From Chryseolinea lacunae (GTDB taxonomy: Bacteria; Bacteroidota; Bacteroidia; Cytophagales; Cyclobacteriaceae): 64,000 nt of DNA. The stretch is from positions 62,001 through 126,000 of the forward strand of contig NZ_JAERRB010000015.1 in assembly GCF_016735595.1 (NCBI RefSeq), in the 5' to 3' direction. The position numbers and the translations under genes are program-made. The notes beneath the pieces are model-generated. The model ran no database searches. It was not told the DNA's origin and saw only the letters and a program-made list of their open reading frames with translations. This document shows, piece after piece, positions 3,323 through 37,454 of this stretch (position 1 is the stretch's first letter; every line of letters starts with the position of its first letter).

Positions 3323-5338
3323 ATGATAAAATTTTACAGCGTAGCGTGGCTATTGCTGATCGCCACGGTATCGCTAGGGCAAGGCAAGCTTGTGCTGGTG
3401 GGTGGCGGATCAGAAGAGGAGGGAGGATGGAGCGACACGCCCTATGCCTGGATTGTGTCGGAAGCGGCCAACAAAAAGGTGGCCGTCATCAGCTACACCG
3501 ACGAAGACAATTTCATTCCCGACTATTTCATTTCGCTGGGTGCCGCAGAAGCCCGGAATATAAAAATTGATACCCGTGCCGTTGCCGATCTCCAGGCTAC
3601 GTACGACGCGCTGATGACCTACGATGCCTTCTTCTTTAAAGGCGGCGACCAATCTCAATACTATACTTTATATAAGGACACGAAGACGATGCAGGCTGTC
3701 ATCGACAAATTCGGCGCCGGTGGCGTAATGTCGGGCACGTCGGCGGGTATGGCAATTCTGTCGAAAGTTTTTTATACGGCCGTGAAAGGATCGGTCTATC
3801 CCGACGAGGCGTTACAGGATGTGTTTGGCAAAGACATGACACTGGCCGATGATTTTCTGCCGCTGTTTCCCGGTTTTCTCTTCGACACACATTTCACAGA
3901 GCGCGGGCGCATGGGCAGGCTGATGCCGCTCATGGCACGCTGGTTTCTGGATCATGGCGAACTGCTGACCGGGATTGGGGTGGACGATCGCACGGCCATG
4001 TGCATCGACGCCGCGAAGACCGGCGAGGTGTTTGGCACGGGAACGGTCTCTATCTTTAACAGTCAGACGTTTTCTGTCGATCAAAAAGACAAGCCAGGTG
4101 CGGACTCCGTGCACGTTGTTCAGCTTCTTCACGGCCACCGCATCGATTTAAGCTCGGGCCAGATTGTGAAAGGACCCACCGATCTGTTGCCACCCCAACC
4201 CCGCCGCGAAACCGGCAACTATCAGGTGGCCCTGAGCGGCAGCGAAGGCGTTTCGACCAACACCGAACTGCTCCAATACCTCGTGAAAGAAACCGGGCTG
4301 GTGGCCGACACCGTGGTGGTGGTGACCGCGCCGGGCAAAGCAAAACCCTTTATACAAAAGATTCAGGATTTGGGTGGACGAACCTTGCTGGTTGAAACCT
4401 CGGCTCCATTTAACGACACAGAACAACGCGACCTGCGAAACGCGATCCGCCGCGCCAGGAAAATTCTTTTTGTAGAAAACGACGACGATGCCCTGTTCAA
4501 CTTCCTGGCCAACGGACCCACCGGATTGCTTCTTAGCAGCCACATGCGCAGGAATGGGATGATCACTGCCTTTGCGGGAGAAGACAGCCGCTATGCGGGC
4601 AAATCGTTTGTGACCAATCATCTCACCGATCAGTATGCGGCATACTATGGCCGGCTTAACTTCCGTAAAGGTCTTCGACTGTTGCCATCCTCTATCGTGA
4701 TGTCGAACACGTTCGATCTTAATACATCTGATTATTATGAGAACACCACCGCCTCGGTGTCTTATGCCATGGTGGCCGACAGCACGGCGTTTGGCATCTA
4801 TCTGAACCGGAACGGCTGTCTGAAATTTTCACAGACTGCCGGGCGCAATGTGTTTAAAGCAAAAGGAGACTTGTCAGCTATCATTCTCGTGAACCGGGGC
4901 ACTACGGCTGCTTTGGCTTCGCAGCCCGTGTCGGCAGGCAAGGCGGCACGCAACTATGCGGGCTTTACGTCTATGCGACTGGTGATGTTGAATAACAACA
5001 ACACGTTCGACGCGGGTGTGCCCATGCCAACGGTGGATGCACCCTACGTATTCGAAAATCTGGTGGTGGGCACAGCGCCCGATTTGAACCGGCCATCCTT
5101 AAAAGTATTTCCAAATCCGTCGGCGAATGGTATCTTTAGTTTGTTGTGGAATGTCGCACCCCCCGGAAAAGTGGAGCTTTCTGTGGTGGATGCCATGGGC
5201 AGGACACTCGTGCAGGAGAAGCGTTTGATGGAAGATGAAAACGTCGTGAATGTGTCGGCGTTGCCGGATGGTGTCTACCTGCTGCGCGTGAACACCGGCA
5301 CCGGCATTGTCACACACAAAGTTATGAAGCAACCTTGA
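3323..5338 (+). CDS. Secreted S51 cyanophycinase-like peptidase with T9SS sorting domain
   Basis: A 671-residue protein. A signal peptide (residues about 1-18, ending ATVSLGQG) is followed by a peptidase S51 domain. A GGDQ motif is at 107-110, and the nucleophile elbow GTSAG has Ser140. The segment DTHFTERGRMGR (188-199) keeps the Asp and three Arg residues that bind the beta-Asp-Arg dipeptide in cyanophycinases, but the Gln after the Asp is Thr. A long middle region follows. The last ~80 residues (from LKVFPNPS) form a type A sorting domain of type IX secretion, which implies export to the cell surface or medium. In the family, S51 enzymes cleave cyanophycin or N-terminal Asp bonds. The ATG at 3323 is chosen because it directly starts the signal peptide. 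It heads a locus with SusC/SusD and a second S51 gene. Confidence 0.85.
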   Translation: MIKFYSVAWLLLIATVSLGQGKLVLVGGGSEEEGGWSDTPYAWIVSEAANKKVAVISYTDEDNFIPDYFISLGAAEARNIKIDTRAVADLQATYDALMTYDAFFFKGGDQSQYYTLYKDTKTMQAVIDKFGAGGVMSGTSAGMAILSKVFYTAVKGSVYPDEALQDVFGKDMTLADDFLPLFPGFLFDTHFTERGRMGRLMPLMARWFLDHGELLTGIGVDDRTAMCIDAAKTGEVFGTGTVSIFNSQTFSVDQKDKPGADSVHVVQLLHGHRIDLSSGQIVKGPTDLLPPQPRRETGNYQVALSGSEGVSTNTELLQYLVKETGLVADTVVVVTAPGKAKPFIQKIQDLGGRTLLVETSAPFNDTEQRDLRNAIRRARKILFVENDDDALFNFLANGPTGLLLSSHMRRNGMITAFAGEDSRYAGKSFVTNHLTDQYAAYYGRLNFRKGLRLLPSSIVMSNTFDLNTSDYYENTTASVSYAMVADSTAFGIYLNRNGCLKFSQTAGRNVFKAKGDLSAIILVNRGTTAALASQPVSAGKAARNYAGFTSMRLVMLNNNNTFDAGVPMPTVDAPYVFENLVVGTAPDLNRPSLKVFPNPSANGIFSLLWNVAPPGKVELSVVDAMGRTLVQEKRLMEDENVVNVSALPDGVYLLRVNTGTGIVTHKVMKQP

Positions 5339-5409
5339 CCCAGAATTCAAAGGCGCCGGCAAATTCCGGTGCATAACCCAGTAAAAACAACCAAACCAAC
5401 TATCTGCTT

Positions 5410-8364
5410 ATGAGGAAAACGCTACTGTTTTTAATTTTTTCATTTTTATCCTGGTGCTCGCTGGCCCAAGAGCGAATGGTTCGCGGAAAGGTGACCAGCG
5501 CCGAAGACGGTTCGGAACAGCCAGGTGTGAATGTGGTGGTGAAAGGTACTGCGAAAGGTACTGTCACGGATCAGGATGGTCAGTATTCGCTGCAAATCAC
5601 CGCGGCCGACGAAGTCCTGGTGTTCACGTTTATCGGCATGCAACCCCAGGAGGTAGTGGTGAACAACCGCGACCGGATTGACGTGGTGATGCAAGCCGAC
5701 ACAAAACAACTGGCAGAAGTGGTTGTGGTTGGCTATGGCACAGAACAGCGGCGACTGATGACCGGCTCGGTGGGTGTGGTGAAAGCCGACGCCATCAAAG
5801 ATTTGCCCGTGCCCACCATAGACGGTGTGTTGCAGGGACAAACCACCGGCGTGCAGGTGAGTCAGAACTCGGGCACACCCGGCGGCGCCATGTCGGTGCG
5901 CGTGCGCGGAACAACGTCGCTGAGCGGTTCAGGCCAGCCGTTATATGTCATTGATGGCATTCCGTTGATTACGGGCGACTTTGGACAAATTGGATATGAA
6001 GGGCAGGGCATCAACGCCTTATCGGATCTTAATCCCAGCGAAATAGAATCGATCAGCGTTTTGAAAGATGGCGCCGCGGCCGCCGTGTATGGTGCGCGTG
6101 CATCAAACGGTATTGTGCTCATCACAACCAAACGCGGCAAAAGCGGCAACTCGGTGGTGAACGTGAATATGTATCAGGGTTTTCAACAGGTCTGGAACAA
6201 ACTCGATATGCTCAACACACAACAGTGGATGGAATATCGCAACGACCTGGCCGGAACCACGGTGTTTACAGAAGCGCAGATAAATGATCCCAACAAGGTT
6301 AACACCGACTGGCAAAAAGAAATTTTTCGCACCTCGCCGATACGCAACTATGAAGTGTCGACACAGGGCGGAAATGACAAGACCAAGTTTTTTATATCAG
6401 GAGGGTATTTCGATCAGAAGGGCATTCTTATCGGCACGGGCTTCAAGCGTGTGAACGCACGCATGAACGTGGATCATAAAATCAACGACCGCCTGAACAT
6501 CGGTGCCAGTGTGGGGCTCACGTATTCCACCAGCGATCGTGTGGAAAGCGACCAGTCATTGCACGGACCACTGCCCAACGGCATCTCTACACCTTCCATC
6601 ATTTCTGTTTACAATGCAGACGGCTCGTATAACCAGAGCGGTCCATACTCCAACGCGGTTTCCATCGCCAACGAAGCCACGAATAAAAACTTTACCTATC
6701 GCACACTGGGCAACGTGTTTGGTGAATACAAAATTCTGCCGGGGTTGAGTGTGGTATCGAAGTGGGGTGCCGACTTTTACAACCTTCGCGAGCATGCGTT
6801 TGAATTTAACACCGTGCAGGGGCAGAAGTATAACGGTCTTGGATTTGAAGCCTATACCAACGTGCTCAACATTGTGAGCAACAACATGCTGAAGTATGAC
6901 GGATCCATTGGCAAACATAATTTTGATGTTGTGCTGGGCTACAGCTTTGAAAAATATCAGTCGCGCGATTCCTATATGCGTGGCCAGGACTATGCCGACG
7001 AAAACCTGCAATACATCAACTCGGCAGCCACCAAGGTTGATGTGACGGCAAGCGCACTCGACCGGGGCATTCGCTCATACTTTACCCGGATCAACTACAA
7101 CTTTGATGGCAAGTATATCCTATCGCTTTCCGGCCGTGTGGATGCATCCACAAACTTTGGTCCCAACAACCGGAACGGATTTTTCCCGGCAGCATCGGCT
7201 GCGTGGCGTGTGAGCCAGGAAGATTTTTTCCGCGACAACGTGACCGCCGTGTCGGAGTTTAAGATCAGGGCGAGCTATGGCTTGCTGGGGAACGACAACA
7301 TTCCGTCGTTTTCGTATCAGGCGTTGTATAGCAACGGTTCGTACAATGGAAAACCGGCCATCTATCCCCGCAGTATCCCCAACCCAGACCTGAAGTGGGA
7401 AACCACCGCACAGCTGGACATTGGTGTGGATGTTGGCTTCTTTGCCGACCGTCTCACACTGGCGGTTGACTACTACAACAAACAAACACGCGACCTCTTG
7501 CTGAGCCGTCCGCTGCCTCCCAACTCAGGATTTTCCAGCATCACCGAAAATGTGGGTGAACTTCAAAACAAGGGTGTAGAAGTGACGCTTGGCTACAACG
7601 GCCCGTTGGGTCCTGTGAAATGGAGTTCTTCACTGAACCTGTCGGCCAACCGAAACAAAGTGATCAAACTCTACAACGGTCAGGTCATTGACGATGGTCG
7701 TGGTGGAAACCGCATCATGGAAGGTGAGCCTGTGGGCGTTTTCTATAACTTCAAATCGTTGGGCGTTGATCCTTCAACAGGCGACATTGTTTTTGAAGAC
7801 ACCAACCACGATGGCGAAATCACAACCGACGATCGCACCATCATTGGCAATCCCAATCCCAAATTTATTGGCGGGTTCACCAACACCTTCAACTACAAAG
7901 GTTTTGACCTGAGCGTGTTCCTGCAATTCTCCTATGGCAACGACGTGTTCAACGGCTCGCGACTGTATCTTGAATCGTTGCAGGGTGGCGACAACCAGAT
8001 TGAAGCTGTGACCCGTCGCTGGCGCAAGCCCGGCGACATCACCGACATTCCGCGTGCCACGTCCGATCCGGTGAAAGCCGCAGAGAACAAGCGCGCATCG
8101 TCGCGGTTCATTGAGGATGGATCGTATATGCGGGTGAAGAACCTCACGTTGGGCTACACCTTCAACAAGATCTTCACCAGCAAGGTGATGCTGTCGAGCC
8201 TGCGTGTTTATGCCAGCGCCCAGAACCTGTTCACGTTCACGAACTATACGGGCCTTGACCCTGAAGTGAATTACAGCGGCAACGACATCCGGGTGGCCGG
8301 AACAGACTTCTTCACGTTTCCGCAAGCACGTGCCATCACTTTTGGTGTTAATCTTAAATTCTGA
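5410..8364 (+). CDS. SusC/RagA-family TonB-linked outer-membrane transporter
   Basis: A 984-residue TonB-dependent transporter. The signal peptide ends near SLAQ (residue ~19). A carboxypeptidase-regulatory-like beta-sandwich follows (RGKVTSAEDG to about residue 95). The VVVGYGTEQRR segment marks the start of the plug, and the PLYVIDGIP motif near residue 180 is characteristic of SusC plugs. The remainder is a 22-strand barrel with repeated aromatic strands, ending in FGVNLKF with a terminal Phe. There is no STN domain, so sigma/anti-sigma signalling through this receptor is not indicated. The SusD partner starts 5 bp downstream. Given the flanking cyanophycinases, the import cargo may be a peptide rather than a glycan; this is inference. 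Confidence 0.95.
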   Translation: MRKTLLFLIFSFLSWCSLAQERMVRGKVTSAEDGSEQPGVNVVVKGTAKGTVTDQDGQYSLQITAADEVLVFTFIGMQPQEVVVNNRDRIDVVMQADTKQLAEVVVVGYGTEQRRLMTGSVGVVKADAIKDLPVPTIDGVLQGQTTGVQVSQNSGTPGGAMSVRVRGTTSLSGSGQPLYVIDGIPLITGDFGQIGYEGQGINALSDLNPSEIESISVLKDGAAAAVYGARASNGIVLITTKRGKSGNSVVNVNMYQGFQQVWNKLDMLNTQQWMEYRNDLAGTTVFTEAQINDPNKVNTDWQKEIFRTSPIRNYEVSTQGGNDKTKFFISGGYFDQKGILIGTGFKRVNARMNVDHKINDRLNIGASVGLTYSTSDRVESDQSLHGPLPNGISTPSIISVYNADGSYNQSGPYSNAVSIANEATNKNFTYRTLGNVFGEYKILPGLSVVSKWGADFYNLREHAFEFNTVQGQKYNGLGFEAYTNVLNIVSNNMLKYDGSIGKHNFDVVLGYSFEKYQSRDSYMRGQDYADENLQYINSAATKVDVTASALDRGIRSYFTRINYNFDGKYILSLSGRVDASTNFGPNNRNGFFPAASAAWRVSQEDFFRDNVTAVSEFKIRASYGLLGNDNIPSFSYQALYSNGSYNGKPAIYPRSIPNPDLKWETTAQLDIGVDVGFFADRLTLAVDYYNKQTRDLLLSRPLPPNSGFSSITENVGELQNKGVEVTLGYNGPLGPVKWSSSLNLSANRNKVIKLYNGQVIDDGRGGNRIMEGEPVGVFYNFKSLGVDPSTGDIVFEDTNHDGEITTDDRTIIGNPNPKFIGGFTNTFNYKGFDLSVFLQFSYGNDVFNGSRLYLESLQGGDNQIEAVTRRWRKPGDITDIPRATSDPVKAAENKRASSRFIEDGSYMRVKNLTLGYTFNKIFTSKVMLSSLRVYASAQNLFTFTNYTGLDPEVNYSGNDIRVAGTDFFTFPQARAITFGVNLKF

Positions 8365-8369
8365 CACAC

Positions 8370-9689
8370 ATGAAAAAGTTATCGATATTACTACTCGCCC
8401 TGTTGCCCCTCGCGTCGTGCGATGTGCTGAATGTTGAATCGCAATCGGCAGTGGAAGAAGAACAGGCCATAAAAGACAAGACGGGAATCGAGAAAGGAAT
8501 TCTCGGAGCCTACACCTCGTTTCAGGCGCTGAGCTACTACGGACGCAGCTACCTGATTTTTTCTGACCTCGCCGCCGACAACCTCGATCACCCGGCCGAT
8601 GCTACTGCACTTGAATATGCACAGATTGACAACGACGTGATTCTGCCCGAGAACGGATCGGTGGACGGCATGTGGTCTTCGGCCTACGAAGGCATCAACA
8701 TCGCCAACAACATCATCGCGAAGGTGCCCGACATGGCCGACATGACGCCAGCCGAAAAGAACGCGGCGCTGGGAGAACTGTATTTTATTCGCGCATTGAA
8801 TCATTTCAACCTGCTGAACTATTGGGGATCGGTGCCGGTGAAAACATCGCCCACCATCGGAACCAGTGGTTTGGATGTGCCCCGCGATCCTGTGGCCAAA
8901 GTATATGAACAGATTATTGCCGACCTCACGTTTGCCGAAGCAAACCTCGGAGCCGGATCCACAAAAGTGCGCGCGTCGAAAGATGCAGCCACCGCGTTGC
9001 TGGCCCGCGTGAACCTCTACAAAGGCGACTATGCACAGGCAAAAGCAAAAGCCACAGCAGTGATTGAAAGCGAAAACTATGATTTGATTGCCTACGCCGA
9101 TGTGTTTGCCGATGGCTCTGACGAATCTATCTTCGAGATCGATTTCACAGACCTGAACCGGAACCGCATTGCCGAATACAACTTTCCGAAAACATTGAAC
9201 GGAAGACGTGAAGTGGCACCTTCGCCCACATTGCTAACGGCCTATGAAGTGGGCGATGCCCGCTATCCAGTGTCGGTGGCGTTTGCCGGAGCGTTGCCCT
9301 ATGCAAACAAGTATAACGACCTGAGCGTGGGAGCCGACAATGTGATTGTGTTGCGTCTGGCCGAAATGTATCTTATCCGCGCCGAAGCCGAAGCCAAATT
9401 GCAAGGCGATGTGGATGCCATCCGGCAAGACATCAACGCGGTGCGCACCCGCGCCAAACTTCCCGACACAAACCTGAGCAGCTACGACGGCTTGCTGAAT
9501 TTTATCGAGAAGGAACGACGTGTGGAGTTTGCCTTCGAAGGACACCGCTGGTTCGACCTTGTGAGAACAAACCGCGCCGTGGATGTGCTTCCCAATGTGA
9601 ACAACGTCAATCAAACGCTGTTCCCCATTCCCTTAACGGAGATTGTCACCAATCAGAATCCGGGCATGAAACAAAATCCTGGCTATTAA
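8370..9689 (+). CDS. SusD/RagB-family surface lipoprotein
   Basis: A 439-residue SusD-type binding protein. The lipobox LASC puts the lipidated Cys near residue 17. The N-terminal helical TPR-like region contains the family pattern around GELYFIRALNHFNLLNYWG and the C-terminal part contains RRVEFAFEGHRWFDLVR, both diagnostic of RagB/SusD. It ends with NQNPGMKQNPGY, a common SusD terminus. It sits on the outer membrane as a lid over the SusC barrel encoded immediately upstream. At 439 residues it is shorter than many glycan-binding SusD proteins, which fits a small or non-glycan ligand but does not prove it. Confidence 0.95.
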   Translation: MKKLSILLLALLPLASCDVLNVESQSAVEEEQAIKDKTGIEKGILGAYTSFQALSYYGRSYLIFSDLAADNLDHPADATALEYAQIDNDVILPENGSVDGMWSSAYEGINIANNIIAKVPDMADMTPAEKNAALGELYFIRALNHFNLLNYWGSVPVKTSPTIGTSGLDVPRDPVAKVYEQIIADLTFAEANLGAGSTKVRASKDAATALLARVNLYKGDYAQAKAKATAVIESENYDLIAYADVFADGSDESIFEIDFTDLNRNRIAEYNFPKTLNGRREVAPSPTLLTAYEVGDARYPVSVAFAGALPYANKYNDLSVGADNVIVLRLAEMYLIRAEAEAKLQGDVDAIRQDINAVRTRAKLPDTNLSSYDGLLNFIEKERRVEFAFEGHRWFDLVRTNRAVDVLPNVNNVNQTLFPIPLTEIVTNQNPGMKQNPGY

Positions 9690-9713
9690 CCGACCTGAAC
9701 CTGAAAAAATAAA

Positions 9714-11069
9714 ATGCATATGAAATCAAAGTTATATTCATACCTCATACTCTTCCTGATGTTTGCCTGCGTGGTGTCGTGTAAAGAAGACGACGATGTG
9801 GCTCCTCAGGCCGCTGCCACCTTCACCGTCGACAAGCAGACTGCTAAAGTGGGAGAGGACATCCAGTTCACCAACACCTCTCAGAATGCCACGGCGTTCA
9901 AATGGAGCTTTGGCGATGGCACAACTTCGAAAGATTTGTCGCCCAAAAAATCGTATGAATCATCCGGAACGTTTGTGGTGAGCTTGCTCTCTTCGGGAGC
10001 GGGTGGCGCTACCATTTCGAGCCTCACCATCACAGTGGTTCCCAATCCGTCGTTTACGGTGGAAGGCGATGACAACCTGGTGGCCCTGACACCGATCAAA
10101 TTTACCAACGCATCCAAAGGAGCTACATCGTATCTCTGGTCATTCGGCAACGAAGCCGCATCCACCTCGACCGATCCGAGTCCAACCTTTACCTATCTGA
10201 AAGCCGGTAGCTATAAGGTGACCTTGAAGGCTATCAGCGCATCGGGTGAAAGCACGTTTGAAAAACAGATCACTGTGAAAGCAGCGACACCGGATGTCTA
10301 TTTTATCGAGAACGGATCGGAGTTGATGAAAAAACTTTCGCTTGATGGCAGCGGAACTGTTTCAAATTTTCTTGACCTCGCCGGTAAAATCGGTGTTGGT
10401 CTTGCCTATGATGATGTGCACGGAAAGATTTATTTCAGTGATTTTAACGAGGCGGACGCAGGCAAAATCTGGCGCGTAAACCTGGATGGCACTGAACTTG
10501 AAGCTGTTGTTTCTGATCTGGTCGATCCTTATGGCATAGCCCTCGATGTAGCGAGCGGGAAAGTCTACTGGTGTGACGGCGCCGACGCTAATGGAATAGG
10601 ACATATCTCACGAGCAAACCTTGACGGTTCCGGCAAAGAAGATGTGGTGTCGGTGGATGGCGCCGGATTTCGTGCCATTGCGCTGGATTTGAAAAACGAC
10701 AAAATGTATTTCTACGAAGTGGAAAACGAAGATCTATACATCGCCAATCTGGATGGAAGCAATGCTACTCCCATTATTTCGGGAGTATACGGCTATGCGA
10801 TTCTGGTAGACAGCGAACACGACAAGATATACTTCGACGAGCAAAATGATGAGTTGTTGAAGCGCGCTAATCTCGACGGAAGCGGCATTGAAACCGTGGA
10901 CGACAACGGCACGCGTATCTACGGAATGTCGATTGATTCGGAGACCGATAAACTCTATTGGTCGGGCAGAGACTCGGGTACCATTTTTGAAGCGGACCTA
11001 GATGGATCAAACAAGATCACATTGAAATCAGGTTTGGCGAGTCCACGTGGAATGTTCTTAAGAAAATAA
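9714..11069 (+). CDS. Lipoprotein with two PKD domains and a YWTD-type beta-propeller
   Basis: A 451-residue lipoprotein. The signal peptide ends in VVSC, with an acidic KEDDD stretch after the Cys as in surface-exposed Bacteroidota lipoproteins. Two PKD domains follow (about residues 35-105, WSFGDGTTS; 110-185, WSFGNEAAS). The C-terminal ~260 residues are repeated blades of the LDL-receptor class B type (KIYFSDFNEADAGKIWRVNL, KVYWCDG, KLYWSGRD; recurring ANLDGS). The fold is a six-bladed propeller used for protein or ligand binding. Translation may begin at 9714 or at the ATG two codons later. It follows SusD by 24 bp and is probably the surface accessory protein of this SusCD unit. Confidence 0.85.
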   Translation: MHMKSKLYSYLILFLMFACVVSCKEDDDVAPQAAATFTVDKQTAKVGEDIQFTNTSQNATAFKWSFGDGTTSKDLSPKKSYESSGTFVVSLLSSGAGGATISSLTITVVPNPSFTVEGDDNLVALTPIKFTNASKGATSYLWSFGNEAASTSTDPSPTFTYLKAGSYKVTLKAISASGESTFEKQITVKAATPDVYFIENGSELMKKLSLDGSGTVSNFLDLAGKIGVGLAYDDVHGKIYFSDFNEADAGKIWRVNLDGTELEAVVSDLVDPYGIALDVASGKVYWCDGADANGIGHISRANLDGSGKEDVVSVDGAGFRAIALDLKNDKMYFYEVENEDLYIANLDGSNATPIISGVYGYAILVDSEHDKIYFDEQNDELLKRANLDGSGIETVDDNGTRIYGMSIDSETDKLYWSGRDSGTIFEADLDGSNKITLKSGLASPRGMFLRK

Positions 11070-11079
11070 GCCGTATCGT

Positions 11080-12210
11080 ATGAAATACATACTCTTTATA
11101 TTATTCGTGGGAATAACAACTTTTTCCCTGCACAGTTGCTCCGACGACGGCTTCCCTGTGCCGCCTGCCAGCACAGTGCCCAAGTTTACGAGCACGGTCA
11201 ACAACGAGTCGTTTGCACCGGCCACGGCCACCTTTAAAAACGAATCGATCATTCCCGAGCGCGCCGGCGACGTGGTGTATACCTGGAGCTTTGGCGATGG
11301 CACATCGTCGTCTGAAGCCAGTCCGACGCACGAATACACAGAGCCAGGAAGCTATAAGGTGAACCTGGTTGTGGTGACCACGAAGTCGCAGGAGATCAAT
11401 GACTATAGTGTGACGTTGGTGATCAAGGACCCGAATGCGGTAGGTATACCGGTGTTTTTTTCGGATAAGAAATTGATCTATTCGTCAATCATTAACGACC
11501 AAGCTCCCGTGGCTTCGCAGTTAAATATTCCCGCACTTCAGGAATGTTATGGAATGGTGGTAGACACGGTGAATAGCAAATTGTATATGGCCGACTACGG
11601 AAGATTGAAGATTTTGGTTTCTGACCTTGATGGCAAAAATCAGCAGGACTTCAGAACCAACATCGGAGCGCCTACATCATTGGCTATCGACTATAAAGAC
11701 GGTCTGATTTATTGGGACACAGGCAGCGCCATCAGAAGAGCCAAATTGAATGATGCTTCGGTTGGTCAATATGAAGATGTGGCAACCGGACAGGCCGATC
11801 CCGAAGGCGTGGCCATTGATCCGGCGAACCGTGTGGTATATTGGAATTGCTATGATGGTGGCGTGTGGAAAAAAGGCATGGATCAGGCGGGCGGTGAACA
11901 ACAGATTATAACAACAGAAGGCGGCGGAAGCATTTTCGTGGTGAAGGATAGAATTTATTTCGATGCTTATTTTGCGGCATCAGATGATTCGTCCATTAAA
12001 TCTGCCAAGCTTGACGGAAGCGATGTTTCGACAATCGCTTCGGGCCTTGGAAGTGTTGTCTATGGTATAGCCTATGATCGTGTAGATAACAAATTGTACT
12101 GGGTGGACCGATATGAAGAGAAAATCATGCGGGCTACACTCACCGGTGAGAATACAGAAACATGGCTCGATGCCTATGCTACCGGTCTGACCTTCGGTAA
12201 ACGTAAATAA
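11080..12210 (+). CDS. Lipoprotein with one PKD domain and a YWTD-type beta-propeller
   Basis: A 376-residue paralogue of the preceding gene with one PKD domain instead of two (WSFGDGTSSSE near residue 70). The lipobox is LHSC at about residue 20. The propeller shows blades such as GLIYWDTGSAIRRAKL, RVVYWNCYDGG and KLYWVDRYEEKIMRATL, the Y-W-x-D signature of LDL-receptor class B repeats. It lies 10 bp after its paralogue and is followed by a rho-independent terminator. The pair looks like a tandem duplication that diverged. The ligand is unknown; no catalytic motif is visible. Confidence 0.83.
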   Translation: MKYILFILFVGITTFSLHSCSDDGFPVPPASTVPKFTSTVNNESFAPATATFKNESIIPERAGDVVYTWSFGDGTSSSEASPTHEYTEPGSYKVNLVVVTTKSQEINDYSVTLVIKDPNAVGIPVFFSDKKLIYSSIINDQAPVASQLNIPALQECYGMVVDTVNSKLYMADYGRLKILVSDLDGKNQQDFRTNIGAPTSLAIDYKDGLIYWDTGSAIRRAKLNDASVGQYEDVATGQADPEGVAIDPANRVVYWNCYDGGVWKKGMDQAGGEQQIITTEGGGSIFVVKDRIYFDAYFAASDDSSIKSAKLDGSDVSTIASGLGSVVYGIAYDRVDNKLYWVDRYEEKIMRATLTGENTETWLDAYATGLTFGKRK

Positions 12211-12222
12211 TGAATTCACTTT

Positions 12223-12269
12223 AAATGTTCATGCCCGGAGAACGTATCCTTCGTGGCATGAACATTTTT
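12223..12269 (+). terminator. Rho-independent terminator
   Basis: A perfect 13-bp stem (AAATGTTCATGCC at 12223-12235 with GGCATGAACATTT at 12255-12267) with a 19-nt loop runs into a T-rich tract. It lies 12 bp after the second propeller gene and before the next S51 gene, so that gene is either read by leakage or has its own promoter. Confidence 0.8.
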
Positions 12270-12287
12270 ATTTATTTCTAAAATCTT

Positions 12288-13127
12288 ATGAAGAAAATAC
12301 TGTTTTGCTTTTCGCTTCTCGTCGCGTTTCATTTTTCAAGTGCACAAAAAACAACGCCCAAAGGCAAACTCGTCATCATTGGCGGTGGCTCGCGGCCCGA
12401 TGCCATGGTGGATCGCATCATTGCCGAGGCAGGCTTGAAGCAGGGGGGCTACGGCATCATTCTCCCCATGTCAAGCGCCGACCCTGATTCAGCGGTCTAT
12501 TATGCGAGTCAGCAGTTTGTGAAAAAAGGAATCAACTCGATCTATGGTGTGATCTTCAAAAAAGGAGAGACCCTGACCCCGCAAAAAGTGGACTCCGTTC
12601 GCAATGCAAAACTGATCTACATTTCCGGTGGCGACCAGACCCGTTTCATGGGTGTGGTGCAAGGCACAGACATTGAGAAGGCCATTCGCGACGCGTACAT
12701 GAAGGGAAGCATTGTTGGGGGAACCAGTGCCGGTGCTGCCGTGATGAGCAAGATCATGATTACGGGCGACGAATTGAAGCATCCCGAATATTCATCTACG
12801 TTTCGAAACATTGAAGAGGCAAACATCGAAACAAAACCCGGGCTGGGTTTGGTTGAGGGAGTCATCATCGATCAGCATTTTGTGAAACGAAGCCGCTACA
12901 ACCGGCTCATCAGCGCGATCATAGAATATCCGCTGGAAAAAGGAATTGGTATTGATGAAGCCACGGCCATCATTGTGTCGGGCAACACGGCCGAGGTGAT
13001 CGGCGATTCGCAGGTGATCGTGTTTGAGAATCCCAAGCGATCTAAAGTGGTCACCAACGGCAAGCTCAGCGCGAAAGGATTGACGTTGAACATCTATGTG
13101 TCGGGAGAGAAGTTCAGCCTTAAATAG
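12288..13127 (+). CDS. Periplasmic cyanophycinase (peptidase S51)
   Basis: A 279-residue enzyme with a signal peptide (ending FSSAQ, residue ~20) and a complete S51 domain. The motifs are GGDQ with Gln117, GGTSAGA with nucleophile Ser147, and DQHFVKRSRYNR starting at Asp195. The spacing Asp, Gln, then Arg at +6, +8 and +11 equals that of the substrate-binding residues I recall for Synechocystis CphB (Asp172, Gln173, Arg178, Arg180, Arg183). Cyanophycinase is an exopeptidase that releases beta-Asp-Arg dipeptides from cyanophycin. The length is close to CphB. It has no sorting domain, so it should stay periplasmic, unlike the larger S51 protein at 3323-5338. Confidence 0.87.
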   Translation: MKKILFCFSLLVAFHFSSAQKTTPKGKLVIIGGGSRPDAMVDRIIAEAGLKQGGYGIILPMSSADPDSAVYYASQQFVKKGINSIYGVIFKKGETLTPQKVDSVRNAKLIYISGGDQTRFMGVVQGTDIEKAIRDAYMKGSIVGGTSAGAAVMSKIMITGDELKHPEYSSTFRNIEEANIETKPGLGLVEGVIIDQHFVKRSRYNRLISAIIEYPLEKGIGIDEATAIIVSGNTAEVIGDSQVIVFENPKRSKVVTNGKLSAKGLTLNIYVSGEKFSLK

Positions 13128-24262: not shown

Positions 24263-26353
24263 ATGAAACCGGGCATCAAGCTTTGTATTGCACTAGTGTT
24301 AGTCACCCTCCATGCGGCCGCCGGCGACCTTGCTGATTTTCAAAAGCATTTCAGAATTTTGCCACACCCCCAGAAGATCGAACTGCTGACGGGTGCAGGC
24401 CTGAGCGCTACAACGCTCCGGGGATTTTACCTGGCCAACGGTGGCGAACGCCCCATCCTGCCAACGGCGCTGGCGGGCCTGCCGTTGCGAAAAACGGGAG
24501 GGGCAGGCATGTTGACATTGAAACTGCAACCCGACCTGGCGCTGCCCTCGGATGAAGGGTATGTGCTGGAAATTTCCGGCGGGCAAGCAACCATCCTGGG
24601 TCGGCAAAATGTGGGATTGTTCTATGGCCTCCAAACGCTAGGACAACTGCTGGAAGATGCCCGCGATCAGCAACTGGAAATTCCTGCGTGCCGCATCACC
24701 GACTATCCCGAGATCGCCTACCGCGCCATTCACCTCGACATGAAACACCACCTGGAAGCAGGACATTATTATTATAGTATCATCGACCGCCTGGCCAGCA
24801 TAAAAGTGAATGCCATCATCATCGAATTTGAAGACAAGCTTCGTTACCGGAAAGCACCGCTGGTCGGCGCCGCCAACGCCATCTCTATTGAAGAGTTTGC
24901 CGCCATCAGTCAGTATGCACACGAGCGGCATGTAGAGATCAGTCCGTTGGTGCAAGGACTTGGTCATGCGTCGTTCATTTTGAAACATGAGGCTTATGCA
25001 AAGCTGCGTGACGACCCCGCATCCGACTGGGTGTTTGATCCGCTGAACCCCGAAACCTACGATGTACAGTTTGCTTTATACGAAGATGCCATGAAGGCAA
25101 CACCCTATGGAAAATACCTGCACGTGGGAGGCGATGAAGTGGGATCGTTGGGAAAATCAGAACGCAACAAACAGTCGGGCATGAAGCCGTTGGAGCTTCA
25201 AATGTTGTGGCTGAAAAAAGTAACAGACTTTGCCGTGGCACACAATCGTATTCCCATTTTTTGGGACGACATGGTGTTCAAGCTCGCCGACCTTTATGAA
25301 ACCACATATGACGCCAGCATCCCGGTGGAGCAGGTAAATGCGCGGTGGCAAAACAATCAATCGTTGCTGGAAAAGAACATAGCCTTGTTTCCAAAAACCT
25401 GTGTTTACATGCGTTGGAACTACGACGACCCGACGCTTCCCGGAAACCAACGGGCCATCGACTGGTATAACGCGCATGCGTTGAAAGCCATGGCGGCCAC
25501 CTCAGCCCAACCCATCTACCCGATGCTGCCGCGGAACCAATCAAACTTCAAACCCATCAAAGACTATTGTCGGCTCACATCCGAAAAAAAGATGGCGGGC
25601 ATTCTCTGCACAGCGTGGGACGATTGCGCTGTGCACTTCGAAACCATCTGGCGCGGTCTCTACGACTTTGGGTTGTTCAGCTGGAACTATGAAGACGTGC
25701 CCATGGCCGAAGCGCATGCCGACTTCCGTCAACGTTTCTATTCGCCGGCGCTGGCAGAGCCATCTGCCGATTTTCAGGATGCTTTGGAAGACGCGCTGAA
25801 GTTTTGGGAAACAGCTTTGTTGAAAGAGGGCGATCGCGACAACTATCACAAAGATTTTAAACTGGTGGATCTTCCGGACGCAAAGAAGCCGGGCGCGTGG
25901 AGTGCGGCCTACAAAACAAAACTGGACGGTGCCCGGCAGGCGGTTCAGAAATACACCGTTATCCAGGACAAAATCAGGAAGGCGCAGGAAGTGACCAACC
26001 GAAACCAATATGCGCTCGACGTGATGGAACAGATCAACACTCTGCAGATCTTTTCGGCGCGGCAATTGATTTTGCTGGAACAGCTTGACAAAGCCCCGGC
26101 CAACCAACGCAAAGCCGTCGCGGCGCAATTGATGGCCTACACAAAAAGTTTTGAAGCGGTGCGGAAGCAGTTCGAGAAGGTGTATGGTGAAACCCGCATA
26201 CTCGGCAATCCGGAAGGTTATCAGCTCGATTCCAATTTTCACCATCACCTGGCCAACGGTACCAACAACACCGACTGGATGTATGTGTATGAGTTGGCTA
26301 TGAATAAGAAAGTGGAAGAGTGGCTTTCACGTCAGGCGTTGACAAACGACTAA
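24263..26353 (+). CDS. GH20 beta-N-acetylhexosaminidase
   Basis: A 696-residue secreted glycosidase. The signal peptide ends near LHAAAG. An N-terminal GH20b-like domain (residues about 25-145, GYVLEISGGQATILG, GLFYGLQTLGQLL) precedes the TIM barrel. HVGGDEVG carries the catalytic Asp291-Glu292 pair of GH20, which uses substrate-assisted catalysis through the N-acetyl group. The enzyme removes terminal beta-GlcNAc or beta-GalNAc. The C-terminal ~170 residues are helical and of unknown role. The next gene starts 14 bp downstream, so these glycosidases are probably co-transcribed. Confidence 0.9.
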   Translation: MKPGIKLCIALVLVTLHAAAGDLADFQKHFRILPHPQKIELLTGAGLSATTLRGFYLANGGERPILPTALAGLPLRKTGGAGMLTLKLQPDLALPSDEGYVLEISGGQATILGRQNVGLFYGLQTLGQLLEDARDQQLEIPACRITDYPEIAYRAIHLDMKHHLEAGHYYYSIIDRLASIKVNAIIIEFEDKLRYRKAPLVGAANAISIEEFAAISQYAHERHVEISPLVQGLGHASFILKHEAYAKLRDDPASDWVFDPLNPETYDVQFALYEDAMKATPYGKYLHVGGDEVGSLGKSERNKQSGMKPLELQMLWLKKVTDFAVAHNRIPIFWDDMVFKLADLYETTYDASIPVEQVNARWQNNQSLLEKNIALFPKTCVYMRWNYDDPTLPGNQRAIDWYNAHALKAMAATSAQPIYPMLPRNQSNFKPIKDYCRLTSEKKMAGILCTAWDDCAVHFETIWRGLYDFGLFSWNYEDVPMAEAHADFRQRFYSPALAEPSADFQDALEDALKFWETALLKEGDRDNYHKDFKLVDLPDAKKPGAWSAAYKTKLDGARQAVQKYTVIQDKIRKAQEVTNRNQYALDVMEQINTLQIFSARQLILLEQLDKAPANQRKAVAAQLMAYTKSFEAVRKQFEKVYGETRILGNPEGYQLDSNFHHHLANGTNNTDWMYVYELAMNKKVEEWLSRQALTND

Positions 26354-26367
26354 ACCCCAGGTCTATC

Positions 26368-28764
26368 ATGATTCGTATTTTTTTATTGCTTGTTGTGTTG
26401 TCGGTAGGGCTGCACGCATGCCGTCCTGTAGAGAAAGCCGCTCCCCAAAGCGAAACACCGGCGTGGACAAAACTTGGTCCCGGCGGTGGCGGCGCAACCT
26501 ATATCCCTACCTTTTCATACGACACGCCGGAACATTTCCTGGTGCGCTGCGACATGACCGGTTCCTACCTGACACGCGATGGTGGCGCGTCGTATGCACA
26601 ATTCAACTATCCCAACGGCGCCTCATCCTATGCCTACGATCCCAACAACCCGAACACGATCTACATCGGCGCATCGGCGTTGCATCGTTCCACCGACGGG
26701 GGCACGACCTGGGAACAGATCTTTCCCGCGAAAGCGGATGTGGTTCGCGAAACGTTCATGGACGACCATGCCAACTATACCCTGGAAGCAAAAGACACTA
26801 CGCTCTACAATAAGAAGTATGGAAGAATCAACGCCATCCACGTTGACCCGCGAAACTCGGCAGCACTCTATTTCAGCATGGGCCCGCGTTTCTATTATTC
26901 GAAAGACGGTGGCAAAACACTGAAGCAAAAAGACCTTGGTGAGCGCATCACCTATATCTATGCCCCAACCGGCGAAGGTGAAAACGATATTCTCATTTTT
27001 ACAGCAAACACCTCGCACACCTTCACACCTTCGAACGAAGCCTTTCAAAAAACAGACTTACCGGTGGCGATGGTGCCCGCGTTTTCTTTCACCGGAGGCG
27101 CAACGGCAAAAGACAAACACACCATTCTGTATGCGTTGCACCACGACGTTCACCAGAAGATTGAGGAAGAGTTTGGGCACAGCGAAGTGTGGCGCTCCGA
27201 CGACCTTGGCAAAAACTGGAAGCCGATGCTGAATCCCGAATTGATGAACAAGGCGGTCGGTATCAAACCAAGCTACTCCATGATTGCTTGCGCAGAGCGC
27301 GATGCCGAAACAACCTACCTCGTGACCAACCGCTATGAAGAAAAGCAGGGCAAGGGAATGATCTATTGGTACGGTGCGCTGAAAACATCTGACGCAGGGA
27401 AACATTGGGATTGGGTTTGGAAGGGCGGCGGAGGCTCGGGGCAGTATGGCGTGAAAGATGGAAAGGGTGTGACCAACCTGAAGGATGCGTGGGCCGAAGA
27501 AGCGTTTGGAGGAGAATACATCCGCCTGATGGATGTGGGGGTGTATCCAAACGATGGCAACGTGGCCATTGTCACAGACTGGTATCGCACGATGAAAACG
27601 GTTGACGGAGGCAAATCGTGGAATGAAATTTACAGCGTCGCGCAGCCCGATGGAACATTCATCAGTCGCGGCATGAACGTGACCACAACCTATGGCGTTC
27701 ATTTCGATCCCTTCGACAGCAGCCACCTGGCCATCAGCTATACCGACATCGGCTATCATCATTCTTACAACGGTGGCAAAAGCTGGAAACGATCCACGGC
27801 AGGGGTACCTGTCGAGTGGATAAACACGTGCTACTGGATGGTGTTTGATCCGGAAGTGAAAGACAAAGTGTGGTCTGTGTGGTCGGGGCTTCATGATTTT
27901 CCCAGAGGCAAAATGACGCGTAATCCCAAATGGAAAACCTATGGCAAAGGCGGCGTTTGTGTGTCGCACGACGGAGGCAAAACCTGGACACCCAGCAACG
28001 AAGGCATGGGGTTCGATTCGCCCACCACAAGCATTGTGCTCGATCCCACCACTGCGGCCAACCACCGGACACTCTATGCAAGTGTGTATGGCAAAGGCGT
28101 TTTTAAATCGACCGACGACGGAAAAACATGGACACTGAAAAACAAGGGCATCGGTGAAAACACCTGCGCATTTGAGTTGACACTTGCAGGCGATGGAACA
28201 CTATACCTCACCGTGAGCCTGACGCCGATGCACAAGGATGGCAAGAGCGGAAGAGGCTACTACTCCGGCGAAGTCTATCGCTCCACCGACGGCGCCGAAA
28301 GCTGGACCAGGTTGCACGTTGCCGACGGCATTTTGTTTCCCAATGGCCTGGACTATGATCGGCAGAATCCAAAGCGACTCTACCTGGCCGGATGGGCAAG
28401 CATTGACCTTGCCGATCTGGTGGGCGGTGATGTGGCGCGCGCCACCGGTGGCAACGAAGTGTTGAAGATACCCGGAGGAATTTTTATGTCGGAAGACGGA
28501 GGAGATTCATGGATATCGGTTTTTGACAAAGACCAATATGTCTATGATGTCACCGTGGACCCGCATCATCCGGGTCGGCTCTATGCCAACACGTTTAACC
28601 AGGCTGCCTATCGCAGCGACGATGCAGGGAAGACCTGGAAGAAAATAAAAGGTTATGATTTTCATTGGGGACAGCGCGCGGTGGTAGACGAAAACAATCC
28701 TGAAAAAATTTACCTCACCACGTTTGGCTCCAGTGTGTGGCACGGAATGCCGGTGACGGAATAG
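26368..28764 (+). CDS. GH74-like double beta-propeller glycosidase (BNR/Asp-box protein)
   Basis: A 798-residue lipoprotein (lipobox GLHAC, Cys near residue 14). It opens with GPGGGGATYIPTFSYD and carries about ten Asp-box turns (SxDxGxxW; for example STDGGTTW, SDDLGKNW, SHDGGKTW, STDDGKTW), typical of tandem seven-bladed propellers. Asp62 in RCDMTG and Asp460 in YTDIG sit where GH74 enzymes have their two catalytic Asp residues (about 35 and 465 in a known GH74 cellobiohydrolase, from memory). GH74 proteins act on xyloglucan-type glucans, but relatives with other targets are common. The ATG at 26368 is chosen because it directly precedes the lipoprotein signal; an in-frame ATG would overlap the GH20 gene. 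Confidence 0.72.
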   Translation: MIRIFLLLVVLSVGLHACRPVEKAAPQSETPAWTKLGPGGGGATYIPTFSYDTPEHFLVRCDMTGSYLTRDGGASYAQFNYPNGASSYAYDPNNPNTIYIGASALHRSTDGGTTWEQIFPAKADVVRETFMDDHANYTLEAKDTTLYNKKYGRINAIHVDPRNSAALYFSMGPRFYYSKDGGKTLKQKDLGERITYIYAPTGEGENDILIFTANTSHTFTPSNEAFQKTDLPVAMVPAFSFTGGATAKDKHTILYALHHDVHQKIEEEFGHSEVWRSDDLGKNWKPMLNPELMNKAVGIKPSYSMIACAERDAETTYLVTNRYEEKQGKGMIYWYGALKTSDAGKHWDWVWKGGGGSGQYGVKDGKGVTNLKDAWAEEAFGGEYIRLMDVGVYPNDGNVAIVTDWYRTMKTVDGGKSWNEIYSVAQPDGTFISRGMNVTTTYGVHFDPFDSSHLAISYTDIGYHHSYNGGKSWKRSTAGVPVEWINTCYWMVFDPEVKDKVWSVWSGLHDFPRGKMTRNPKWKTYGKGGVCVSHDGGKTWTPSNEGMGFDSPTTSIVLDPTTAANHRTLYASVYGKGVFKSTDDGKTWTLKNKGIGENTCAFELTLAGDGTLYLTVSLTPMHKDGKSGRGYYSGEVYRSTDGAESWTRLHVADGILFPNGLDYDRQNPKRLYLAGWASIDLADLVGGDVARATGGNEVLKIPGGIFMSEDGGDSWISVFDKDQYVYDVTVDPHHPGRLYANTFNQAAYRSDDAGKTWKKIKGYDFHWGQRAVVDENNPEKIYLTTFGSSVWHGMPVTE

Positions 28765-28804
28765 ATAAACCCGAACATCAACCCTAAAAGCAATCCCATT
28801 GGCA

Positions 28805-31210
28805 ATGCGCAACACCTTGCAAACGACCGGATTTATAATGTTGCTGTGCGCTCTCATGGCATGCAGTCGCGACAAGCATACGGTCGAGGTAAAAAATGAT
28901 ACAACAACAAATCCGAATGGACGCAACGACGCCTGGGGATTTGCAGGCTATGGGGGAGGGGGAGCCATGTTCTATCCGGCGGTGAGTCCGTTCAACCCAA
29001 ACCAGGCACTGGTGGCGTGCGACATGACGGGCTCATTCATCACCCTCAATGGCGGGAAGACGTGGCGCATGTTTAACCTTCGTGGCCCTGTGCATTATTT
29101 TGTTTATGACCCGTTGGACTCGAACACGATGTATGCAAACTCCATCGGCCTGTTCAAGAGCAGCGATGGTGGCACCACCTGGAGTTTGCTCTATCCAAAC
29201 CCCGCAGCGGTGACCGCCTTGATTTCCAAAGGCGACCACGCATCCGAAGAACTTGTGACAAACGACAGCACCCAACGCCATGTGCCTGCCTTTGCCGTTG
29301 ATCCGGAAGATTCAAAAAAACTCTATGCCGCGATTTCCATTGATAAAGCCATTGGCTTTTACGCTTCGCGTGACGGTGGTTTGCAATGGACAAAGGAAAC
29401 CGATCTGCCCATCGATGTTAAAAATATCTATGTGGTGCCTGGCACACCACGCAATAGCAGGACGATCTATGTGGCCACCAGTCAGTCTGTTGTTGTGCGG
29501 CAGAACGGACACTGGAAGACCAACCCAAGCCCGCAAGGTGTACATGGCCTCACCACATTTTCGGGTGGCTTTGACAAGGCTACTGAAAAATTCGTGCTCT
29601 ATGCCATTGCCGGAAAATCGTACTTCGATGCAGAAGGCACGGGCTCCGGAATATTCTACACCGACGACGGAGGCGCCACATGGCAAAACCGCGAGTCGGG
29701 GTTGTTGAAGTATCAGGTGTCGGCAGCGCCCTTGCCTGAATATAGAACCGTGGCCACAAGTGCTGCACATCCAGAAACTGTATACATTTCCTACAACAGC
29801 CTGAAGGTTCACGCCGACACCACCTGCATCGGTGTGGCCCGAAGCGATGACTTTGGAAAGACGTGGACGTTGGCCTGGAAAGACAAACTCACCAAGGGTG
29901 GCAACATCGTGTCCGCAAATTTTGAGGAAGAGTGGATCAACAAAAGGTTTGGCCCCACCTGGGGAGAGAATCCATTTTCCATCGGCGTTTCACCCGCTGA
30001 TCCGTCGGTTTGCTACGCCACTGATTTTGGTCGGACGGTGCGCACCACCGACAAAGGCCGCACATGGCAACAAGTTTACACCAACGAACAACCTAGTGGT
30101 GGCTGGACATCGCGCGGGCTTGAAGTGACCACGGGTTATGCCGTGGTGTTTGATCCTTTAGATATGCGCCATGCCTTCATTGCCAACACCGATGTGGGCC
30201 TGATGGAAAGTGGCGATGGTGGTGCGAGCTGGCAAAGCGCCACACAAAACAACGGTGTGCCCAAGCGTTGGGCAAACAGCACCTATTGGCTGGCGTTTGA
30301 TCCGGAGGTGAAGGGGCGCGCGTGGAGTGTGATGAGTTCGACACACGATTTGCCACGACCAAAGATGTGGCGAAGAAACGGCGTGACCGGCTATGAAGGC
30401 GGCGTGCTGGTGACGGACGATGCCGGCAAAACATGGCAGCCCGTGAGCCACGACATTGGCGAAGCCGCCATGACACACGTACTCATCGATCCTTCCACCC
30501 CGAAAGATTCGCGGACGCTGTATGCCTGCGCGTTTGGAAAGGGCGTGTATAAATCAAAGGACGGCGGCAAACACTGGGAACAGAAAAATGATGGCATCGA
30601 AGGCAAAGAACCGTTTGCCTGGCGCATTACACGCCGGGACTCGGATGGCGTCTTATTCCTGGTGGTCTGTCGCAGGGGCGAGAGCGAAACTGTGGGAGGC
30701 GAACTGGATGGCGCCCTCTATCGTTCGGACGACGGTGCGGAACATTGGAAAAGAGTTTCGATGCCCGAAGGAACCAATGGCCCCATGAGTCTGACGACGG
30801 TGGCGGGCCAACCGCATCGGCTCCTGCTTTCGGCCTGGGGAAGAAACCTGAAAGCACGTTTTGCGGGCGACGAAGGCGGCGGCATTTTCCGCTCCGACGA
30901 CGATGGCCAGCACTGGACTGCCGTGTTGCCACGCGACCAGCACATCCACGACATCACGTTCGACGCGCGCACCAACATTCACTATGCCTGCGGCTTCAAC
31001 GGGTCGGCTTATCGATCAGGTGATGAAGGAGCAACCTGGACCCGCATTAAAGGCTACAATTTCAAATGGGGCAAACGCGTAGACCCCGACCCCGCGGACA
31101 CCTCGCGCATCTACATCGTCACCTTTGGCGGTGGTGTGTGGCACGGCCCCGCGCGTGGCGACACAGACGCCGTGGAAGACATCACGACACCCTTGTTCGG
31201 ACGGCACTAG
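28805..31210 (+). CDS. GH74-like double beta-propeller glycosidase (paralogue)
   Basis: An 801-residue paralogue of the upstream gene, with lipobox LMAC (Cys near residue 18). The same architecture is seen: GYGGGGAMFYPAVSPF at the start, then Asp-box repeats such as SSDGGTTW, SRDGGLQW, TDDGGATW and SKDGGKHW. The equivalents of the two GH74 catalytic acids are Asp73 (ACDMTG) and Asp463 (NTDVG). The ATG at 28805 is preferred over a TTG two codons earlier. It lies 40 bp after its paralogue and is the last enzyme before the SusC/SusD part of this locus. The tandem pair suggests two linkages or chain ends of one substrate. Confidence 0.7.
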   Translation: MRNTLQTTGFIMLLCALMACSRDKHTVEVKNDTTTNPNGRNDAWGFAGYGGGGAMFYPAVSPFNPNQALVACDMTGSFITLNGGKTWRMFNLRGPVHYFVYDPLDSNTMYANSIGLFKSSDGGTTWSLLYPNPAAVTALISKGDHASEELVTNDSTQRHVPAFAVDPEDSKKLYAAISIDKAIGFYASRDGGLQWTKETDLPIDVKNIYVVPGTPRNSRTIYVATSQSVVVRQNGHWKTNPSPQGVHGLTTFSGGFDKATEKFVLYAIAGKSYFDAEGTGSGIFYTDDGGATWQNRESGLLKYQVSAAPLPEYRTVATSAAHPETVYISYNSLKVHADTTCIGVARSDDFGKTWTLAWKDKLTKGGNIVSANFEEEWINKRFGPTWGENPFSIGVSPADPSVCYATDFGRTVRTTDKGRTWQQVYTNEQPSGGWTSRGLEVTTGYAVVFDPLDMRHAFIANTDVGLMESGDGGASWQSATQNNGVPKRWANSTYWLAFDPEVKGRAWSVMSSTHDLPRPKMWRRNGVTGYEGGVLVTDDAGKTWQPVSHDIGEAAMTHVLIDPSTPKDSRTLYACAFGKGVYKSKDGGKHWEQKNDGIEGKEPFAWRITRRDSDGVLFLVVCRRGESETVGGELDGALYRSDDGAEHWKRVSMPEGTNGPMSLTTVAGQPHRLLLSAWGRNLKARFAGDEGGGIFRSDDDGQHWTAVLPRDQHIHDITFDARTNIHYACGFNGSAYRSGDEGATWTRIKGYNFKWGKRVDPDPADTSRIYIVTFGGGVWHGPARGDTDAVEDITTPLFGRH

Positions 31211-31260
31211 TATCATCTTCCGGCCAGAGCCAATCTTTTCTATTCTAATGAAGCCGCGAC

Positions 31261-31330
31261 CCGCGTCCGAAAAAAAAACGGACACGGCGATGAGATTGGT
31301 TGTGCCGTAGTCTCTTTTCACTAGAGAGAC
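31261..31330 (+). other. Two hairpins in the leader of the FecR-like gene
   Basis: CCGCGTCCG (31261-31269) pairs with CGGACACGG (31279-31287), with one mismatch, around a loop of nine A. GTCTCT (31310-31315) pairs with AGAGAC (31325-31330). No T-run follows either, so simple termination on this strand is unlikely. They lie in the 137-bp gap before the small FecR-like gene. Confidence 0.35.
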
Positions 31331-31347
31331 GCCAACCCAAACGCAGC

Positions 31348-31641: not shown

Positions 31642-31667
31642 CTACCAACAAACCAAAACACAGAACT

Positions 31668-34838: not shown

Positions 34839-34842
34839 CGGT

Positions 34843-36300: not shown

Positions 36301-36326
36301 TTCTTCAGTAGTGTAGTTTTCAGTTC

Positions 36327-36375
36327 CCTCTCTGAAAGCCGGCCTTCGCGCTGGTTTTTCAGAGAGGTTTTTTTT
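36327..36375 (+). terminator. Strong rho-independent terminator after susD
   Basis: CCTCTCTGAAA (36327-36337) pairs perfectly with TTTCAGAGAGG (36357-36367), with further partial pairing inside, and is followed by eight T. It ends the plus-strand SusCD transcript. On the minus strand the hairpin has no T-tract. Confidence 0.92.
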
Positions 36376-36416
36376 GAACATGTTGCAGGCAGCGAAAAGG
36401 AATTTGATCGAATGGG

Positions 36417-37346: not shown

Positions 37347-37454
37347 AAGTCAAGAATTTTAGAGTGGTTTGAGATAGGCAACCATGGGTCGCCTTCACCA
37401 AACTACAAAAAAAATCCCAGCCCGAAAGAAGTGTTTAACCGTGGGCCTCCGGTT

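Follow-up and report, generated by a model that had tools for sequence, protein, structure and literature searches.

Predicted cyanophycin scavenging by a six-gene SusCD locus with two S51 peptidase genes in Chryseolinea lacunae

Cyanobacteria and other bacteria store nitrogen in the polymer cyanophycin. In a 64,000-nucleotide stretch of Chryseolinea lacunae DNA (contig NZ_JAERRB010000015.1, positions 62,001 to 126,000, called the window here), we found a SusCD locus with an S51 peptidase gene at each end, termed S51a and S51b. The locus is predicted to scavenge cyanophycin, or a beta-aspartyl polymer much like it, by the SusCD plan, an outer-membrane import scheme known chiefly for sugars, and we give this reading a probability of about 0.75 on the basis of family matches, alignments and structure models. 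It draws on the gene content, a gene order shared with relatives, the active-site residues, the predicted folds and a host genome with no cyanophycin synthetase match over cut-off. The original prediction, made by a model from the DNA letters, had placed a six-gene SusCD locus at 3323 to 13127, on one strand with small gaps. The open frames and family matches bear this out: all six frames are on the plus strand and are separated, from S51a to S51b, by 71, 5, 24, 10 and 77 bases.

Two S51 proteins around a SusCD importer

S51b (12288 to 13127, plus strand) has a signal peptide and is presumed to be periplasmic. It scored 156.5 bits against the cyanophycinase model TIGR02069 (cut-off 126.6), which by score makes it a full member of that family. 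It matched solved cyanophycinases at 2.8e-27, 3.2e-19 and 7.6e-19, and alpha-aspartyl dipeptidase at only 1.6e-4. Residues Q117, S147, H197, R201, R203, R206 and E224 correspond to Gln101, Ser132, His174, Arg178, Arg180, Arg183 and Glu201 of CphB, as counted by hand on the S51b alignment with 7uqw. Each was kept in 44 or 45 of 45 aligned sequences (the window protein and 44 others of at least 39% identity and at least 250 residues). His174 and Arg178 of CphB are reported to be required for substrate binding (PMC12661447; here and below, statements from cited articles refer to the parts of them that were available).

S51a (671 aa, 3323 to 5338, plus strand, ATG start at 3323) was scanned against the families as the frame from 3281, which is 14 residues longer than the ATG-3323 form. 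Peptidase_S51 matched at 26.9 bits (cut-off 23.9). The C-terminus (5105 to 5332) carries a type IX secretion system (T9SS) type A sorting domain (TIGR04183, 51.4 bits, cut-off 23), which marks the protein as a predicted T9SS cargo. Lobe 1 (residues 18 to 265, 3374 to 4117) has an apparently intact active site with Q110, S140, H190, R194, R196 and R199, and with D222 where CphB has Glu201. An alignment of 75 sequences was made from the window protein and 74 relatives of 600 to 860 residues. All 75 have the Gln, the Ser, the His and two Arg, 74 have the third Arg, and 73 have Asp where CphB has Glu201.

The middle region of S51a has no family match and went unremarked in the original prediction. 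It is a second S51 fold, lobe 2 (residues 294 to 566, 4202 to 5020). Profile comparison of lobe 2 gave a probability of 95.5 (E 1.5e-8) with S51b and 86.5 (E 4.6e-6) with lobe 1, each E-value applying to one single comparison. Lobe 2 modelled alone from 38 sequences had a mean predicted local distance difference test score (pLDDT) of 92.3. In the Protein Data Bank (PDB), cyanophycinase chains made up the nine best matches of this model, with E-values of 2.6e-13 to 9.4e-12 and TM-scores of 0.70 to 0.76 by query length; three of these chains belong to a protein titled pseudo-CphB. The full S51a model from 40 sequences (mean pLDDT 92.6, predicted TM-score 0.81) also had only cyanophycinases among its nine best PDB matches, of which three were titled "pseudo-CphB" and one had a bound cyanophycin dimer; T9SS tails ranked lower. 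No conserved Ser or His was found at the active-site places of lobe 2. Of 40 sequences, all 40 have the pattern G-x-S-x-G in lobe 1 and 1 has it in lobe 2. By alignment and model, S51a is predicted to be an intact cyanophycinase lobe fused to a lobe of the same fold without catalytic residues. Since CphB is treated as a homodimer (PMC12661447), the natural guess is that in S51a an active and an inert lobe are fused into a pseudo-dimer.

Between the S51 genes lie SusC, a TonB-dependent importer (5410 to 8364, plus strand; TIGR04056, 917 bits, cut-off 368), and a SusD lipoprotein (8370 to 9689, plus strand; PF07980 and PF14322, both over cut-off). SusD follows directly after SusC, as in SusCD importers. 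SusC also matches RagA chains at 333 bits. The sequences of SusC and SusD were considered as a guide to the cargo and were uninformative. Next come two lipoprotein genes on the plus strand, the first (9714 to 11069) with two PKD domains and an LDL-receptor-type propeller and the second (11080 to 12210) with a PKD domain and a propeller; Pfam assigned PKD plus Ldl_recept_b to both, and they presumably bind substrate at the surface. The signal peptides, and the cysteines of the lipoproteins (LASC, VVSC and LHSC), were identified by eye from general rules and not by a prediction tool, so the "surface" and "periplasmic" locations are presumptive. As the original prediction had stated, the locus holds no glycosidase: no Pfam match to a glycosidase or glycan-active enzyme was found among the ten proteins scanned there.

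Conservation of the locus and its partner genes

Genome contigs were searched with an alignment of S51a relatives. The loci were gathered by S51a similarity, and the best 80 of 117 relatives became the named loci. All but one (L100) of the 80 are anchored on S51a; 26 of these 79 have a flank shorter than 5 kb on a side and the other 53 reach 5 kb or more in both directions. The set is not an independent sample (several loci come from Flammeovirga and many from Bacteroidales metagenome-assembled genomes (MAGs)), and the gene arrangement differs between groups. SusC lies within 5 kb of S51a in 42 of the 53 loci with full flanks. At 20 hand-picked places in 9 genomes SusC was within 5 kb in 2 (SusD in 1), and it was found at none of 20 gyrB loci (20 fetched of 24 found); the control genomes are from Cytophagales and Bacteroidales, none from Ignavibacteria. 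The search for S51-SusCD adjacency that the original prediction had proposed gave a conserved linkage. Among the 53 full-flank loci, SusD is within 6 kb in 34 and a second S51 gene within 10 kb in 37. Among all 79 anchored loci, 57 have SusC within 10 kb and 44 have SusC plus SusD. Plasmid relatives came to 28 records, every one below 60% identity.

The order S51a-SusC-SusD-PKD-PKD-S51b is common to Chryseolinea serpens, Pseudochryseolinea flava, three Cyclobacteriaceae MAGs, Marinigracilibium pacificum and Mangrovivirga halotolerans. Given the same order in these relatives, the cluster layout is not due to chance. Flammeovirga has one PKD protein instead of two (S51a-SusC-SusD-PKD-S51b-IaaA-YfcC). 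Many Bacteroidales MAGs have a divergent IadA gene followed by S51a-S51-SusC-SusD-PKD, and the order in Ignavibacteria is YfcC, RpiR, SusC-like, a 914 aa protein, PorV family and S51a.

In ten Ignavibacteria/Calditrichia loci (L118, L120, L124, L129, L134, L138, L139, L140, L141 and L143) a SusC-like TonB transporter is followed by a conserved protein of about 914 aa and a PorV/PorQ-family protein, ahead of S51a. SusD was not found in these loci with the probes used, and the 914-aa protein (one scanned) had no Pfam match. It may stand in for SusD in these groups. In three further loci (L056, L057 and L061) a protein encoded beside SusCD is cyanophycinase-like and about 350 aa long (S51a2 type), with no S51a or S51b in the stretch examined. 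These are possibly a second kind of locus.

The partner genes in related clusters point to the substrate class. IadA (isoaspartyl dipeptidase) homologues occur in 27 of the 79 anchored loci at a median of 90 bases from S51a (under 200 bases in 21 of the 27); a representative of the divergent Bacteroidales neighbour scored 435.6 bits, over the IadA cut-off of 331.25. IaaA-type genes were found in 9 of the 79 loci and a YfcC-like carrier in 26. Either IadA or an IaaA-type gene is present in 36 loci, and any of the three in 49. In a Flammeovirga-type locus (L021), the two genes after S51b encode an Asparaginase_2 protein (PF01112, 340 bits) and a DcuC/YfcC-like carrier (PF03606, 337 bits). Further on are a third T9SS-tailed S51 gene and an ornithine aminotransferase (635 bits, cut-off 378). 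The L017/L094 cluster carries a YfcC-like carrier, an IaaA-type gene, a DDAH/ADI-like protein and an arginine deiminase family protein. An M14 zinc carboxypeptidase is encoded near S51a in 20 of the 79 loci (e.g., L076, 4270 to 5769), mostly directly beside it in Ignavibacteria, and is a candidate for the dipeptide or arginine step. By family assignment, the partner genes are predicted isoaspartyl-dipeptide and arginine enzymes, not glycan enzymes.

Proposed pathway, the host genome and alternative substrates

We infer the activities, locations, cargo and order of steps as follows. T9SS-exported S51a would shorten the polymer outside the cell through its one active cyanophycinase lobe; its inert lobe probably takes the place of the second subunit seen in the CphB homodimer or contributes to holding the polymer. 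At the surface, the polymer or its fragments would be retained by SusD and the PKD/propeller lipoproteins, and SusC would import the fragments with TonB energy. Periplasmic S51b would cut them to beta-Asp-Arg dipeptides. The dipeptides would then cross the inner membrane, presumably on a YfcC-like carrier in relatives, and be split by an isoaspartyl dipeptidase, in relatives IadA or an IaaA-type enzyme; no match to this carrier or these dipeptidases was found in the host. The original prediction had an outer S51 enzyme cutting an isoaspartyl polymer, SusCD importing the fragments and the inner S51 enzyme finishing them. The substrate class and the logic stand, given the conserved adjacency and the partner genes of relatives, with cyanophycin itself the likely cargo. 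The finishing role does not stand: cyanophycinase releases beta-Asp-Arg dipeptides (PMC10206079), and a dipeptidase is therefore still needed after S51b. The beta-Asp-Arg-splitting step is called undiscovered in Bacteroidota by the same source. The clusters offer candidates for it in IadA beside S51a, the M14 carboxypeptidase and the AGA-type enzyme of the host.

The window belongs to a 7.9 Mb genome with three PF03575 matches. Its best match to the cyanophycin synthetase model TIGR02068 scored 102 bits against a cut-off of 850, as in a scavenger; storage of its own cyanophycin was rejected for this host, with no synthetase match over cut-off. The synthetase was over cut-off in 3 of 18 genomes of one set (G025, G056 and G083; the host is negative) and in 2 of 7 of another (G111 and G224). 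A close S51b (E ≤1e-40) is carried by 24 of 291 genomes of the order; among these 24 the synthetase was found in 1 of 13 SusCD-linked genomes (G224) compared with 4 of 11 unlinked ones, numbers too small to compare firmly, with short stretches at L048, L051 and L054. Within this small sample, the distribution fits scavenging. In G224 a run SusC-SusD-S51a2-IaaA-S51b, with a FecR gene upstream, is found at 9097 to 18406 of L053. G224 would be a case of storage and scavenging in one genome.

Several findings weigh against cyanophycin scavenging by the window locus. S51a scored 101.5 bits against TIGR02069, under the cut-off, and has Asp in place of Glu201. SusC was lacking within 10 kb in 22 of the 79 S51a loci (some at contig ends), and no SusC adjoins in 11 of the 24 genomes with a close S51b, while G224 combines a SusCD-linked S51b with a synthetase. 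The controls cover SusC and SusD and none of the other partner genes. The IaaA-type and YfcC-like proteins pass Pfam but fall under the NCBIfam equivalog cut-offs (324.9/567 and 376.7/500), and the arginine deiminase family protein of L017 (PF02274, 196 bits) is below cut-off in the NCBIfam arginine deiminase models. In the host, no IadA was found (best TIGR01975 match 35.7 bits, cut-off 331) and no IaaA-type gene. The only PF01112 match, on contig C1, is of the AGA type (237 bits; L144, 8822 to 9799), with a Tat-like signal by eye, so the window holds no isoaspartyl dipeptidase, as had been predicted, and none adjoins a cyanophycinase in the host. No YfcC-like carrier was seen in the host with NF008611 at E 0.001 (the broader PF03606 was not searched there). 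A CphZ-like dipeptidase was also considered; the one AstE_AspA protein of the host tells little, being present in 8 of 8 genomes tested. The closest relatives with the exact cluster (L064 to L068) show no YfcC or dipeptidase in the 20 kb stretches examined. An IaaA-type gene lies elsewhere in the genome of C. serpens (391 bits) and P. flava (377 bits), and the three Cyclobacteriaceae MAGs with the cluster have none (two have the AGA type only and one has no match). With no IadA, IaaA-type or YfcC-like match, the last steps in the host are therefore unproven.

Some of these points are shared by an unlikely alternative, that the locus handles another beta-aspartyl substrate such as protein fragments rich in isoaspartyl residues, a cyanophycin variant that contains Lys or a poly-aspartyl polymer. 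IadA and IaaA accept a range of isoaspartyl dipeptides (PMC10206079), and the S51a score, its Asp for Glu201 and a host with no recognised beta-Asp-Arg dipeptidase are in keeping with this alternative. However, S51b keeps the CphB site residues including those equivalent to Arg178, Arg180 and Arg183, and some related clusters carry arginine deiminase family or ornithine aminotransferase genes. An ordinary glycan or glycoprotein SusCD unit with the S51 genes as bystanders is very improbable. Glycan loci often include PKD domains, SusC genes number at least 56 in the host (56 of 145 candidates scored) and the cargo is not readable from SusC or SusD, but the locus is free of glycosidases, SusC stands beside S51a far more often than in the controls, and S51 stays with SusCD despite different gene orders between groups. 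Detoxification of isoaspartyl-nucleotide antibiotics, with SusCD adjacent by other causes, is hardly credible: S51 peptidases are reported to confer microcin C resistance (PMC9239234), yet the toxic compound is intracellular, both window S51 proteins look exported (S51a with its T9SS tail) and the partner genes are catabolic.

If cyanophycin scavenging is correct, the import locus and its surface enzyme would allow cyanophycin feeders to be recognised from their genomes. The SusCD plan would cover a non-ribosomal isopeptide polymer besides glycans and protein peptides, and surface-active cyanophycinases would become available for use. It is an even call whether SusCD cyanophycin import defines a class of non-glycan loci that is widespread in Bacteroidota but has hardly been recognised, and that has a version in Ignavibacteria/Calditrichia in which no SusD is recognisable. 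Its marker would be the surface pseudo-dimer of an active and a dead lobe, the latter giving a dimer-like shape or grip.

The neighbours of the locus are an FMN reductase gene (opposite strand) and a peroxiredoxin gene 123 bases downstream; homologues of both adjoin the C. serpens cluster (L064) with 61% and 84% identity. Promoter and terminator scans (15 sites compared with 10.8 in shuffles, and 14 compared with 13.6) support neither way. Elsewhere in the window, a second SusCD pair (31668 to 36300) is found near a GH20 hexosaminidase (24263 to 26353) and a GH109-type protein (37455 to 38828, minus strand). The region 24263 to 38828 looks like an amino-sugar glycan locus, separate from the S51 cluster. 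A 495-aa open frame at 49224 to 50711 has no Pfam match at E 0.001.

Comparison with known systems

PMC10206079 describes clusters of cyanophycinase and dipeptidase genes in genomes without a synthetase and names two strains, Flammeovirga pacifica WPAGA1 and L21-Spi-D4, the latter for a "cyanophycin utilization locus" that includes a transporter (Ben Hania et al. 2017). In our search the WPAGA1 locus (L125) reads S51a-SusC-SusD-PKD-S51b-IaaA-YfcC-S51c. It resembles the window cluster, which differs from such scavenging clusters in having no dipeptidase or inner-membrane carrier. Compared with CphB and CphE of the S51 family, S51b scores as a full member and lobe 1 of S51a keeps the Gln, Ser, His and three Arg, whereas S51a as a whole is two-lobed with one lobe inert, T9SS-tailed, under cut-off and Asp-substituted at Glu201. 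S51 proteins with a Por secretion domain, and thus T9SS-tailed like S51a, are described in Cyclonatronum (CYPRO_0608) and Salinivirga, in genomic contexts that differ between the two; the available part of that article mentions no SusCD link or second lobe for them (PMC6243061). In Citromicrobium a TonB-dependent transporter lies beside a cyanophycinase with cyanophycin as predicted cargo, and the accessible text mentions no SusD, surface enzyme or propeller protein there (PMC3400609). Mat Bacteroidota carry cyanophycinase genes (PMC12590107). In the article portions covered by our literature search, no statement linking cyanophycin to SusD was found, and cyanophycin and type IX secretion were co-mentioned only for a fish pathogen.

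The locus shares with SusCD glycan loci and the RagAB peptide importer the SusC and SusD pair, the surface lipoproteins and enzymes outside and inside. It is unlike them in that its enzymes are S51 proteins and a glycosidase is absent. Since Ben Hania et al. (2017) may describe SusCD, we claim novelty only as a variant. Scavenging of cyanophycin is known in outline and the present six-gene architecture seems little described; the locus is known in kind and new in detail.

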